DNA of 64,000 nt, from assembly GCA_946406435.1 (NCBI GenBank), contig CAMJKP010000003.1:1-64000 (forward strand). Direction: 5' to 3'. Positions 832 to 6,253 of the stretch are shown here, one piece after another (the first letter of the stretch is position 1; each line of letters starts with the position of its first letter). The stretch comes from an uncultured Prevotellaceae bacterium (lineage in GTDB: Bacteria > Bacteroidota > Bacteroidia > Bacteroidales > Bacteroidaceae). Position numbers and translations under genes: made by a program. The notes below the pieces were generated by a model. That model was not told the origin of the DNA. It ran no database searches and saw only the letters and a list, made by a program, of their open reading frames with translations.

Positions 832-1269
832 TTAGATTTTATCCCCATCAAAAGGTTTTGCAATAGGTTGACTTCGTCGAGCTAAACCTTCATCGTTCCA
901 GCTGGACTTGTTCGGCTTGCGCTTGTGCGATGCAAGGATTGCAGCGTTCTGTTCCTCATCCGTCAGAGGGATGGGATTCTTGCGGTTCGCTTCCAGCCAC
1001 TTGTCTATCTCATCAAGGTAGATGACCCATCGCTTGCCTGGCTTGGAGCCGGGGATTTCCCTGTTCGCGAGTTTCTGATAGATGGTCGCAAGGGGAATGT
1101 TGGTGTACTCGGCAACCTGCTCTGGCGTGACAGGGCGGTGTCTGTTCTCTCTCTGCTGAGTTGGTCTGTTCTGAAGGTTCAGCAGTAACGCCTTCATGCC
1201 CGATACTTCATCCCGAAGTTCGGCGATGACCTGCGGAAGGTCATTGAACGTAATTTGATCTTTTATCAT
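832..1269 (-). CDS. Excisionase/MerR-type helix-turn-helix DNA-binding protein
   Basis: A 145-residue protein. After a short coiled N-terminus (LRDEVSGMKALLLNL) it has a classic HTH_17/excisionase module: PVTPEQVAEYTNIPLATIYQ, then KLANREIPGSKPGKRWVIYL and a DEIDKWLEANR helix. Such modules bind element ends or promoters and steer excision or transcription. The ORF track extends to 1338, but the first 23 residues (MACPPIHNG...) do not look like part of the domain. The ATG at 1269 (MIKDQITFNDL) is the better start. It lies upstream of the partial gene at 819 with a 12-bp gap. A 12-bp motif TCACGCAGTTGA sits about 100 bp upstream and recurs upstream of the integrase. HTH identity is secure; the role in excision is inferred. 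Confidence 0.8.
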   Translation of the reverse strand: MIKDQITFNDLPQVIAELRDEVSGMKALLLNLQNRPTQQRENRHRPVTPEQVAEYTNIPLATIYQKLANREIPGSKPGKRWVIYLDEIDKWLEANRKNPIPLTDEEQNAAILASHKRKPNKSSWNDEGLARRSQPIAKPFDGDKI

Positions 1270-1367
1270 TTGACAACACGACCCTTTAGTGGAATCGTGC
1301 TGCAAAGGAACCCCGTTATGAATCGGAGGGCAAGCCACAGTTTTATAACTGGTGCGTCACGAAACAA

Positions 1368-1609: not shown

Positions 1610-2557
1610 TCAGCCTTTCTCTACGCCCAGTTGTGAAGGAATATGGAATAGCAGTCCGTCTGCTCCCTGGATGTCACAATGTATCTGGTCGCTGTTGGAT
1701 GTGACTGTCAAGTTCCTGAGTGTGCTATGTGACAATGGCTCCCCACTGGCTGTTACGCACAATGAAGCAAAACGACGCTCGATATAGCAGGCGCAATCAT
1801 CGTTGCTGTAAACCTTGCCTTTGCCAAGTCCCAACCTTATGGCAATGCTCCAGACCAGATGACGGACATCGAAGCTGCTCAGTTTAGTCTTGTATCTCTT
1901 CCACTCAACTTCAGGACGATAGTTGTGATCCATGGCAAATCTCAACAGGTCTGTACAGAACTCGTCCATGTCTTCCTCGTAAATAAAAGGTGACATGATG
2001 TATAGAAGGTATTCATGAATGGTGTCCAGTTTCTTCTTCTGGTTTTCTGCCTGACTTTGATAAAAGTCATCAATGCCTTGCTGGTAGGTTGCACTGGCAT
2101 GGTTTTCTTTCGGGAGTACTTCAGTATCTTCCGCACATACCTCTTCTACAACCTCTGTCTCATTTATCTCTTCAGTGGTTTCCACTTCGCAAATGGTATC
2201 AATGTTTTCAGACTCGTTGATAATAGGTATTGCCTCCAAAAGAAAAACAGGTTTCTGTGCTGTTGATTCATTTGTTGCAGTTTGATAATTGCAAGCATGA
2301 GTCTTGGTTTTCCTCGTCTGCGCTATTCCCACGAAAGCATACTGCACAGCCATATACATTGACCATAGGACAATTACTGACATCATGTAGATGATACCGA
2401 CAGGAACAATGTCATCGGGTAAGATTGAGTCAGCCCACTGACAAAGTGGAATTGAAAGAAGAAGTACTGCAACTCCCGGCAGTATTCTTGTGGAGATCCA
2501 TTCTAGTCGGATGGATGCCTCCCGTGAAGTGATTGAAGATGGTGAATCTATTTTCAT
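1610..2557 (-). CDS. Element-encoded membrane protein of unknown function
   Basis: A 315-residue protein. Two hydrophobic segments near the N-terminus (about residues 24-45 and 50-78) should anchor it in the inner membrane. An acidic linker of about 60 residues rich in E and T follows. The C-terminal globular region (about 180-315) contains IYEEDMDEFCTDLLRFAMDH and DVRHLVWSIAIRLGLGKGK. The start is supported by a perfect minus-strand -7 box 43 bp upstream. It lies between the integrase and the HTH gene of the same element. I recognise no named domain. Proteins of this shape are known to me only as hypothetical passengers of Bacteroidales mobile elements, so no function is assigned. Confidence 0.75.
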   Translation of the reverse strand: MKIDSPSSITSREASIRLEWISTRILPGVAVLLLSIPLCQWADSILPDDIVPVGIIYMMSVIVLWSMYMAVQYAFVGIAQTRKTKTHACNYQTATNESTAQKPVFLLEAIPIINESENIDTICEVETTEEINETEVVEEVCAEDTEVLPKENHASATYQQGIDDFYQSQAENQKKKLDTIHEYLLYIMSPFIYEEDMDEFCTDLLRFAMDHNYRPEVEWKRYKTKLSSFDVRHLVWSIAIRLGLGKGKVYSNDDCACYIERRFASLCVTASGEPLSHSTLRNLTVTSNSDQIHCDIQGADGLLFHIPSQLGVEKG

Positions 2558-2861: not shown

Positions 2862-4025
2862 TTATCCCTGCCCGACGACTTTCAGTTGCGGAGTTATCTT
2901 TGGCTTCAACGTGATGCGGTTGACCGACTCGCGCTTGCTCTCGTCAGCCATGTTCGCATAAATCTGAGTGGTTTCCACATTTTTGTGTCCGAGCATGTGC
3001 TGGACGGTGTAGATGCCTGTTCCTGCATCAACCTGCAAGGAGCCAAAGGTATGGCGGGCGCAGTGGAATGTGATGTGCTTGGTGATGCCTGCTGCCTTCA
3101 GCCAGTTCTTCAAGGTGGTGCCAGTCATTTTGTCCTTGAAGTCTGGGAAGACTTTTGCATCGGGTTCGTGTTCTCCGTCATCGAAGCCAATGAGTTCAAG
3201 TGCCTCTTCGCTGACTGGGTTGTTCACGAGCTGCTGAGTCTTCTGCATACGCACTGTGATATACATGCCTCCATCTCCGTATGGCTGAATCTTCTTCCAT
3301 GTCAGCGCCTTGACGTCGCTCTTTCTGAGTCCTGTGAGGCAGGAGAAGAGGAATGCTTTCTTCAATACAGGTTCTTTGCAGTCGGTGTTGGCAAGATTTA
3401 CGAGTTCCGGCTGTGAGAGGTGTTCCTTCTCCGTAGGAATGGTGTCTATCCTGTCAAGGAAGCCATTGGGATTCTCCTTGATCTTGTGGTCACGGTAGGC
3501 AGTGTGGAGAACGGCACGGAAGGTTGACCAGTAGCCTGCAATGGTGTTGGTGTGCAGTTTCTGCTTCTTGTGGATGGTCTGTGGAGCGGTATAAAGGTAC
3601 TCCTTGAACTTGTTGCACAGGTCAACGTCTATCTCCCCGAAGGTGCATTTCCCTTCGCAGAAGGTTTCGAAATGCTTATAGACGTTCTGCCACTTGGTGT
3701 TCCTGGCATCGGCCCTCTTCTTGAACCATGCGAGGAAGCTGCCTTTCTCCTTTTCTCTGTCGAAGAAGTCGTAGCGTTCATTCACGATGCTCTCATAGCG
3801 TCGGCAGCGCAGTGCCTCGGCTTTCTCCGTCATGCGCTCGTTGTAGTCACGCTCGCGCTGGTTCTTGGGCTTGGCAAAGATGTAGATGCCAAGTGACTCA
3901 TGTCGCTGTACCTTCATGGTTGACTCGTCCCTGTAGCCGGGATAGTAGTCAAGGTAGAAACTCAGTTGCGTACCTTTCTTTATCTTACGCGTACGCAAGG
4001 TTACTGTCTTGCAAATGTTACTCAT
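2862..4025 (-). CDS. int: Tyrosine recombinase (site-specific integrase)
   Basis: A 387-residue phage-type integrase that would cut and rejoin the element ends with the chromosome. Order: an arm-binding N-terminus, a SAM-like core-binding region (about 95-195), and a catalytic domain (about 200-370). Catalytic residues are visible: R234 in TGLRKSD, the H321xxR324 box in HCARH, H347 in LGHKN and nucleophile Y356 in TQIYANM. Length fits the Bacteroidales family of about 380-410 residues. It sits about 1.5 kb from the inferred right end of the element, as element integrases usually do. An imperfect -7 box (TTACTTTG) upstream overlaps half of an AACTGCGTGA motif, so repression by an element protein is plausible. 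Confident of the family; the target core sequence is unknown. Confidence 0.95.
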   Translation of the reverse strand: MSNICKTVTLRTRKIKKGTQLSFYLDYYPGYRDESTMKVQRHESLGIYIFAKPKNQRERDYNERMTEKAEALRCRRYESIVNERYDFFDREKEKGSFLAWFKKRADARNTKWQNVYKHFETFCEGKCTFGEIDVDLCNKFKEYLYTAPQTIHKKQKLHTNTIAGYWSTFRAVLHTAYRDHKIKENPNGFLDRIDTIPTEKEHLSQPELVNLANTDCKEPVLKKAFLFSCLTGLRKSDVKALTWKKIQPYGDGGMYITVRMQKTQQLVNNPVSEEALELIGFDDGEHEPDAKVFPDFKDKMTGTTLKNWLKAAGITKHITFHCARHTFGSLQVDAGTGIYTVQHMLGHKNVETTQIYANMADESKRESVNRITLKPKITPQLKVVGQG

Positions 4026-4174: not shown

Positions 4175-5149
4175 TTATTGGAGCCTGTAAGCCCCGAATT
4201 GTGCAAGTCTGCTTGCCATTATTCGGTCTAATTCCTCCTTGACGATGAGGTTCTGCACTCCGACTTTCACCTTCGTGAGGTTGTTCGTCTTGACGATAAC
4301 GCAGATGTTGCTCTTGGTCATGCCGTACTTCTCGGCAGCTTCGGTGGTGGTGTAATAGGCATCACTCGCCTTCAGGTCGGGACGGAAGATGTCATCAAGA
4401 TGTTTCTTTGAGTAATAGGTCGTGCCATATTCTCGCTTGGTGGGAATATGGCGGCGGTAGGCTTGGGTGCGCAAGGATTCCTTGGTCGTGGAATAGAGTA
4501 CTACTGCCTCATCCGTAGTCAGCCATTCTGTTATGGCTTCTATCTCAGCAGGAACTCCGAAGAGCGCATCCATGTGCTTTCGGCTATAATAGTTCTTGCC
4601 TGCAATCTTGCACATAGGTATGTTGTTCCTCTTGGCAGATACATAGAGCCATGACTTCTTTACCTTGTAGATAGCCATAACGTCCTCGCCAGAGATGTAT
4701 TCAAGTGGCTCGATGTTCTGAACAGAATCCTCTTTTCTCGCTGGCTTACTTGAAGCACGTCCTTTCTTCAACGATAGGGAAGAAGGAGTCAAGGGCTTGT
4801 AGGTTGGCAATACTCTATGATAAGGATTGCCAGCAAGCATCTTCTCGATGTCAGCCTTGCGGATGAAAGCCATACGGCTGCTGATTCGTGATGCAGGAAG
4901 TTTACCCTCGTTTACCAACTTGTAAACGTACTGACGGGAGCATCCCATGAGGATGGCAGCCTTGGAGAATGTGAGATACTCCTGGCTGGCGATGTCTATA
5001 ACTGGCTGGACTGCCTTCAAAAAGTCCTGTTGTCTTTTCTTGCGCTGAGCCTTTGCTGCCTCAGCACATTGTTCTGAGCAATACCTCTGCGAGCCGCTGT
5101 TACAAGTGAACTCCTTGCCGCAGAAGGCGCATTTTCTTGTCTTTCTCAT
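4175..5149 (-). CDS. Zinc-finger protein with four tandem excisionase-like HTH modules
   Basis: A 324-residue protein. The N-terminus carries a treble-clef-like zinc motif: C7xxC10 (CAFCGKEF) and YCSEQC (C24, C28). Four HTH_17/MerR-like modules follow. They begin near YLTFSKAAILMGCSRQYVYK (about 55-105), YISGEDVMAIYKVKKSWLYV (about 150-197), WLTTDEAVVLYSTTKESLRT (about 208-256) and YYTTTEAAEKYGMTKSNICV (about 265-312). The first is the most canonical and is followed by a linker rich in S, K and P. The gene lies upstream of the integrase in the same direction and has a perfect -7 box at 5398-5405. A 10-bp iteron array sits in its 245-nt leader. A role as recombination directionality factor or element regulator is inferred. 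Confidence 0.85.
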   Translation of the reverse strand: MRKTRKCAFCGKEFTCNSGSQRYCSEQCAEAAKAQRKKRQQDFLKAVQPVIDIASQEYLTFSKAAILMGCSRQYVYKLVNEGKLPASRISSRMAFIRKADIEKMLAGNPYHRVLPTYKPLTPSSLSLKKGRASSKPARKEDSVQNIEPLEYISGEDVMAIYKVKKSWLYVSAKRNNIPMCKIAGKNYYSRKHMDALFGVPAEIEAITEWLTTDEAVVLYSTTKESLRTQAYRRHIPTKREYGTTYYSKKHLDDIFRPDLKASDAYYTTTEAAEKYGMTKSNICVIVKTNNLTKVKVGVQNLIVKEELDRIMASRLAQFGAYRLQ

Positions 5150-5300
5150 TTGACTCCTTTTTATGTGGTTTTACAATCAATTTCATGCAAACCGCCACGG
5201 AGTGAACTTTCGTCAATCATTGACACCCATTGTCAACTCATTCCACGATGTCACGTTCTTCAAATGAGGTCACTTCCTTGCTCTTTTCCCTCTCGTTCAT

Positions 5301-5350
5301 CAGTCAACCGTTGTCCACTCTTGTCAACCTTTGTCAACCCTGTCCACGAG
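5301..5350. repeat. Five helically phased 10-bp iterons (TTGTCAACcn)
   Basis: Between 5301 and 5350 the units cagtcaaccg, ttgtccactc, ttgtcaacct, ttgtcaaccc and tgtccacgag follow one another at 10-bp steps. A further ATTGTCAAC lies at 5229-5237. One unit per helical turn implies proteins bound along one face of the DNA. The array lies between the -7 box and the start codon of the four-HTH gene and about 180 bp inside the inferred element end, so it may be an operator or recombinase arm sites. Confidence 0.6.
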
Positions 5351-5397
5351 ATGGCAAAATAAAAGCCCTCAAAATTCTCCGCGGTAGAAATGCGTTG

Positions 5398-5405
5398 CAA
5401 AGGTA
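5398..5405 (-). promoter_or_regulatory. -7 promoter box (TACCTTTG) for the four-HTH gene
   Basis: Perfect TAnnTTTG on the minus strand, followed by CAACGC. It gives an unusually long leader of about 240 nt that carries the iterons. Confidence 0.55.
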
Positions 5406-5499
5406 AGCGGATTTTTGAGAACTACCAAAAAACGAGTCTGAAGTGTTAAAATCTAAAAGTAGTTGATATACAAGGGTTTATCTCTATGTGTTTTTCGTT

Positions 5500-5545
5500 G
5501 TTTATTGTTGTTTAGAGGTCTCTAAATACAACAAGCTGAAAAAGC
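5500..5545. mobile_element. Inferred right boundary (attR region) of the integrative element
   Basis: The BspA-like frame reads normally through a typical repeat (IGYGAFSAC) and then diverges within a few codons to a stop (CCI*), close to 5525-5540. Beyond it lies element DNA with integrase and HTH genes. A junction here explains both the truncated gene and the position of the integrase. The other end is outside the window, so the duplicated core cannot be read. Confidence 0.5.
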
Positions 5546-5878
5546 TCCATAACCTATGCTCGTTACGGAATTAGGAATTGTAACGGAATTTAGTTCTGGG
5601 CAACGAGAGAATGCATCCATAGAAATTCTCGCCACTTTATAATCTTTGCCATAAGTTACTGTTGCAGGAATAACAACATCGCCTGAATATTTTTTTTCAC
5701 CATCAGTAACTTCCGCTTCACCAAAAATACGACTATTTTTTTTGAAATCAAAATAATCAAGATTATAATACAAACCATTAATCTCTGTTTGCTCACCAAC
5801 AGCCTTTTGAGCATGTCCTGCCACTGACACTACCAGTGTCAGCATAAGCATTAAGAATTTCATTGATTTTGTCATCAT
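5522..5878 (-). pseudogene. BspA-like leucine-rich repeat protein, 3'-truncated by the element
   Basis: A 118-residue fragment. It has a signal peptide (MKFLMLMLTLVVSVAGHAQ), a BspA-family lead-in (GLYYNLDYFDF, then YSGDVVIPATVTY) and the first leucine-rich repeats (FSRCPELNSVTIPNSVTSIG). It stops abruptly after about one and a half repeats. Intact relatives are several hundred residues long, as the gene at 33968 shows. BspA-type proteins are secreted adhesins. The truncation coincides with the inferred element junction, so the rest of the gene may lie beyond the other end of the element. A perfect -7 box lies 46 bp upstream. Confidence 0.75.
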
Positions 5879-5931: not shown

Positions 5932-6098
5932 CAAAATTTTTCTTGCGGTTCACGAATTTTTCCCGATTTTTTTTGTGTTTTGTGAGTATTTTTTTGAATT
6001 AGCACCTACAGCCTCTGTAACTTATGCGGTGTCATTAGTGTCAAGTGTCATTGGTGTCATTAAGAATTTTCTAATTGTAGGGAAAGTGTATTTCTGTT

Positions 6099-6136: not shown

Positions 6137-6253
6137 GCCTCCCCCCGCACTTCAAAGTTGCTTAATGACACTCGTGACACCTGACACCAATGACACCACA
6201 GAAAAATTTTAAAAAAGTTGCCGAAAGATTCGTGAACCGCAATGAGAATGTTG

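Follow-up and report, generated by a model that had tools for sequence, protein, structure and literature searches.

The window, which is the whole stretch of 64,000 nucleotides analysed here, contains the tnpA-int-tnpC-xis gene order of the Tn4555 family, together with the left end of the element and part of the gene that it interrupts (Table 1). Judged by its sequence, the gene at 4175–5149 is the tnpA of a Tn4555-family integrative mobilizable element; homology to the Tn4555 TnpA runs the whole length of the protein (55% over 315 residues) and the gene sits upstream of int. In a Tn4555 copy from genome G220, the same module is followed by genes for an AAA ATPase, a DUF6371 protein, a coiled-coil-like protein (weak matches) and CfxA, in agreement with the gene order published for Tn4555 (PMC13183296). 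The window copy has its left end at 5529, where DNA homology among relatives stops at TGTATTTAG and a BspA-like LRR reading frame begins; its right end lies past the contig start, and the mobilisation genes, the relaxase/oriT region by which a helper ICE mobilises elements of this family, and the cargo are likewise outside the contig. The ends typical of the family, imperfect 12-bp inverted repeats, and the 6-bp coupling sequence were both seen in Tn4555 copies, and no recognisable right end was found in a copy from Prevotella communis (G233). One further Tn4555 copy (L038–L040, genome G299), 100% identical to that of genome G092 over 9,280 bp, is without the usual right end, the match stopping abruptly.

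Table 1. Genes and sites of the element and its left junction, in window coordinates
Feature	Position	Strand	Description
xis homolog	832..1338	-	single HTH_17; 50% identity to the xis of a Tn4555 copy
tnpC-like gene	1610..2557	-	23% over 304 aa, E 2e-12, against the gene at the tnpC position of a Tn4555 copy
int	2862..4025	-	tyrosine integrase with Arm-DNA-bind_5, SAM-like and catalytic domains; 64% identity to the integrase of a Tn4555 copy
tnpA homolog	4175..5149	-	324 aa ORF; 55% identity to TnpA of a Tn4555 copy
Array B	5198..5237	-	GTTGACAATG GGTGTCAATG ATTGACGAAA GTTCACTCCG; four exact 10-bp units; 88 bp before tnpA start
CATCGTGG box	5243..5250	-	before array B; conserved
Array A	5299..5338	-	GTTGACAAAG GTTGACAAGA GTGGACAACG GTTGACTGAT; four exact 10-bp units; 191 bp inside element end
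CATCTCGTGG box (CAYCGTGG)	5344..5353	-	before array A; conserved, separate from the array; contains the off-phase fifth unit
TACCTTTG, predicted -7 element	5398..5405	-	matches TAnnTTTG; 67 bp before array A in 86/93 copies
TTTTAACACTTC, candidate integrase arm site	5440..5451	-	conserved in 94/108 LRR-clade leaders; shuffled, 2 of about 100
Element left end TGTATTTAG	5522..5530	-	element starts at G5529, T5530 shared; in-frame stop for the interrupted gene
Interrupted BspA-like LRR gene, 5' part	5531..5878	-	LRR_5

Architecture of the TnpA protein

The tnpA product consists of an N-terminal CX2C-X13-CX3C motif, a helix (residues 26–54), a first winged helix-turn-helix (wHTH1, 56–108), a disordered linker (113–146) and wHTH2–4 (151–318). 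A first-pass annotation of this DNA, made from the letters alone, had described the product as a protein with a zinc motif and four excisionase-like HTH modules. The motif is indeed present as a Cys4 motif, and its cysteines, C7, C10, C24 and C28, show no variation among 20 homologs. The number of modules stands as well: Pfam finds four HTH_17 stretches, and the AlphaFold model has winged HTHs at about 56–108, 151–198, 209–255 and 265–318, the last three following the disordered linker at a spacing of ~57 residues, in a model whose mean pLDDT of 75 and pTM of 0.41 make the mutual placement of the modules unreliable. Beside HTH_17, the modules also match the TIGR01764 excisionase domain, and they adopt the BldC/Xis wHTH fold with a Foldseek probability of 1.00 and TM scores of 0.75–0.85 (normalised by the single-module targets). 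What is not supported is the excisionase identity. Excisionases (recombination directionality factors) are small proteins with one wHTH, whereas this one has four and its element encodes a separate xis; the protein is of a known kind, the TnpA-type targeting protein of Tn4555.

Phased arrays in the tnpA leader

The first-pass annotation had further seen five TTGTCAAC-type units spaced by exactly 10 bp in the leader of this gene, and had drawn attention to a protein with several reading heads lying next to such a phased array. The juxtaposition is real, with four wHTHs encoded at 4175–5149 and the repeats in their leader, but the picture of a single five-unit array needs revision. Four units are in exact phase in array A (GTCAAC or GTCCAC on the plus strand, with GTC at 5303, 5313, 5323 and 5333), while the fifth, at 5342, is 9 bp away. 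A second four-unit array, array B, had been overlooked, and the region then proposed for footprinting, 5290–5350, takes in array A alone. The earlier observation was nevertheless mostly right, the array being beyond chance: the two-unit 10-bp pattern has three matches against 0.07 expected, and the 10-bp repeat self-similarity score is 18.6 against a shuffle maximum of 3.2. Lone nine-base words resembling TTGTCAACC, on the other hand, are not enriched in the window (19 seen, 16 expected), and only the phased array is significant.

Conservation in related elements, on which the earlier proposal had been made to depend, extends to both arrays, which are kept by nearly all of 29 diverged leaders (relatives' leaders less than 92% identical). 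Autocorrelation of these leaders peaks at a lag of 10 bp (z 18.5), and a matrix search in the same set returns two blocks of four conserved decamers each, with information content at background level past the fourth unit. Tn4555 copies, whose tnpA, int, tnpC-like and xis genes are homologous to those of the window and in the same order, likewise combine four HTH modules with two four-unit arrays; their TnpA is about 45% divergent from that of the window, and their unit sequences differ. The positions of the two arrays are fixed with respect to different landmarks. In 86 of 93 copies array A is separated from the element end by 190–191 bp, against a variation of 44 bp in its distance to the gene; array B lies 85–89 bp from the tnpA ATG in all 93. 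Across the window and 92 other leaders, the distance between A and B clusters near 79, 101 and 123 bp, three classes that differ by about two turns of the helix, as would be expected if the helical face were preserved. A search for further arrays in the element and at the right end returned none. A plasmid-type replication origin with iterons does not describe this arrangement, in which the neighbours are tnpA and int and the arrays lie in the leader of a chromosomally inserted element.

Upstream of array A stands TACCTTTG, a match to TAnnTTTG, the consensus of the Bacteroidetes -7 element. Since this predicted element precedes array A, the arrays would fall in the transcribed leader. Just downstream of it, CATTTCTACCGCGG (5379–5392) is strongly conserved, also in the distant leaders of the mnmE clade described below.

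Insertion targets of the element and its relatives

Among 94 distinct left-end junctions, 75 are at the same codon of an LRR repeat, 7 are elsewhere in LRR genes and 12 are outside LRR genes. The shared position is the first base of the codon for the conserved Cys in the 23-residue LRR unit; the window copy, one of the seven, is inserted one codon further on. None of the 94 is an antisense LRR insertion, and in 72 of the 75 same-codon insertions the element end supplies a stop two codons downstream. For scale, the host genome has 99 LRR_5 matches, which we estimate at roughly 0.8% of its sequence. A second copy in the genome of the window (contig C87 of G000, L002), with a TnpA 85% identical and a nearly identical leader, sits in another LRR gene. 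At the right ends of Tn4555 copies the LRR frame continues and two different 6-bp coupling sequences are seen, in keeping with Tn4555 biology. The LRR preference of this clade agrees with a targeting function of TnpA, and deletion of tnpA renders Tn4555 insertion essentially random (reviewed in PMC5704250). According to the same review, the preferred Tn4555 locus of B. fragilis holds a 207-bp direct repeat. This length is exactly three LRR units of 69 bp, which suggests that the old Tn4555 hot spot was itself an LRR gene.

No phased iteron match came up when the unit matrix was run over the LRR targets. The iterons were therefore rejected as the target signal, and the same four-head binding mode cannot account for target choice. 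Targeted and untargeted LRR units of the same genes show slight differences only, the targeted ones being merely somewhat more canonical. The insertion sites outside LRR genes tend to score high for DNA resemblance to the LRR target (median percentile 0.98 proximal and about 0.85 distal), which, in a small sample, suggests that what is read is the DNA and not the identity of the gene.

Distant relatives that fall outside the LRR clade have another preference. A stop preceded by CIGK or CVGK stands directly before 39 of 42 of them (35 recognised by pattern and four by eye), and in both cases tested it is the 3' end of mnmE. SGI1 and others use this same trmE/mnmE end, SGI1 belonging to a different element family and the LRR clade of the window having its other target. 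The leaders of the mnmE clade contain one array only. TnpA has diverged more than the integrase N-domain between the two clades, and the switch of target between LRR and mnmE thus went along with a change in TnpA, which is suggestive but short of proof.

The proposed role of TnpA at the arrays

Our best reading, which we regard as probably correct, is that the four wHTHs of this Tn4555-family TnpA lie along the four-unit arrays and form a synaptic complex at the element end that steers the integrase to the LRR codon. One TnpA molecule would probably lie along each array, with one head per helical turn. By coating array A, at its fixed distance from the recombining end, TnpA would build the bound synaptic complex; array B, at its fixed distance from the start codon, may serve the same complex, autoregulation or both. 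The complex would then guide a weakly specific integrase, in this clade to one codon of the 69-bp LRR_5 repeat. Precedents for such binding exist among proteins with the same single-module fold. BldC of Streptomyces, which was also matched by the TnpA modules, occupies direct repeats head-to-tail, one subunit to each repeat, with a 4:1 stoichiometry on four of them (PMC5859096), and RdfS of ICEMlSym has been modelled with the same head-to-tail binding (PMC11963761), the repeats in these systems being about one turn apart. Both are single-wHTH proteins that oligomerise, whereas TnpA, known here from sequence and model, joins four modules covalently behind an N-terminal Cys4 motif; its chain would be a covalent version of the head-to-tail oligomer of BldC, RdfS or lambda Xis.

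A narrower role, for which we see a limited though real chance, is that the arrays are a TnpA-bound operator for autorepression of tnpA and int and take no part in targeting or synapsis. Their location, presumably within the transcribed leader and flanked by the -7-like TAnnTTTG and the tnpA start, would suit an operator, as would the constant distance of array B from the start codon and the single leader array of the mnmE clade. The constancy of array A, on the other hand, is kept relative to the element end and not to the gene, which suggests that it also has a role there; the argument is not conclusive, the predicted promoter sharing the same stretch.

It is rather unlikely that the arrays instead serve the integrase as arm-type sites, bound by its N-terminal arm-binding domain, with TnpA acting elsewhere. 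Lambda-type integrases do use clustered arm sites close to the ends, the window integrase carries an Arm-DNA-bind_5 domain, and array A keeps a constant distance from the end. Because tnpA lies next to int in every one of 131 loci (on the same strand, with a median gap of 144 bp), linkage alone cannot decide between the two binders. In 51 non-redundant lineages, the divergence of the array units tracks that of TnpA, at a partial r of 0.36 (permutation p 0.001), and does not track that of the integrase N-domain when TnpA is allowed for (partial r of 0.01, p of 0.46), a comparison that may be biased by the faster evolution of TnpA. Similar N-domains can go with quite different units, as in lineages L138 and L159, where the N-domain distance is 0.22, the TnpA distance 0.67 and the array distance 0.40. 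Units found in the same place in distant lineages differ widely (TTTTACAGAA, TGGGACACCA, TTGCACACGG and ATATACATCG). Furthermore, the arrays are at the left end only, and a separate motif, TTTTAACACTT, is conserved closer to the element end. The comparison favours TnpA rather than the integrase as the putative array binder, with the rate of TnpA evolution as its caveat.

The remaining two explanations fare worse. Xis proteins build filaments on phased sites, and the TnpA modules match HTH_17, TIGR01764 and Xis folds, one of them superposing on Pukovnik Xis with a TM score of 0.83 and an rmsd of 1.1. It is nonetheless very improbable that TnpA is a multi-domain excisionase reading the iterons for excision, as the first-pass annotation had framed it: excisionases have one module against the four of TnpA, the element has its own single-HTH xis, and the role of the homologous tnpA lies in target choice, being needed for the target preference of Tn4555 (PMC5704250). 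We give almost no credence to the repeats as RNA structure, since, although the arrays are probably transcribed, an Rfam search gave no match, the leader folds no better than shuffles (z -1.1) and an exact 10-bp period is a feature of the DNA helix.

How the targeting protein acts has been a question of long standing, ever since tnpA was named a targeting gene. Handles on it are now a four-head wHTH chain, two four-unit candidate sites at fixed spacing and a sharp LRR codon rule in the sense orientation. Neither the precise layout of the arrays nor the codon rule was found in the literature searched, which did not include the original Tn4555 papers, and priority is uncertain. Elements of the Tn4555 type carry the CfxA beta-lactamase gene among the Bacteroidales, and most of their insertions in this clade truncate a surface LRR protein, since a stop codon usually comes with the end of the element.

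The number of heads is not constant among relatives of TnpA, in which 3, 6 and 8 wHTH modules also occur; those with 8 (548–556 aa) or 6 (447 aa) modules lie just past mnmE (L136–L142). The first-pass annotation had proposed comparing array length with HTH number in related elements. Agreement is seen in the 4-HTH lineages, which have four units, but not in relatives with 3 modules (about five units by eye) or 8 (about six plus four, by eye), so that a universal rule of one unit per HTH holds for four and fails for three and eight. The 6-HTH relative has six units by eye and four by the automatic count, which is noisy on single leaders, giving mostly four but sometimes three or five in 4-HTH leaders. 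Away from the 4-HTH proteins, this automatic score does not fit one head per unit. A more general proposal, which we put forward tentatively and think doubtful as it stands, is that TnpA-type proteins are modular DNA rulers of 3, 4, 6 or 8 heads that program the target of a shared tyrosine integrase through a code of heads and units, changes in the heads having switched the target between the mnmE 3' end and the LRR codon. Were the head and unit sequences such a code, they would offer a natural system for retargeting an integrase.

Two minor observations concern sequences outside this comparison. Genome G261 has more than 10 copies of a AATCAGTTGTAAATAT-like sequence on many contigs, several of them near contig ends, which suggests a multicopy element with similar ends. 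In the window, short tandem repeats of the GTGTCATTA type occur at 6029–6062 and 6164–6198, on one side as such and on the other as the reverse complement.
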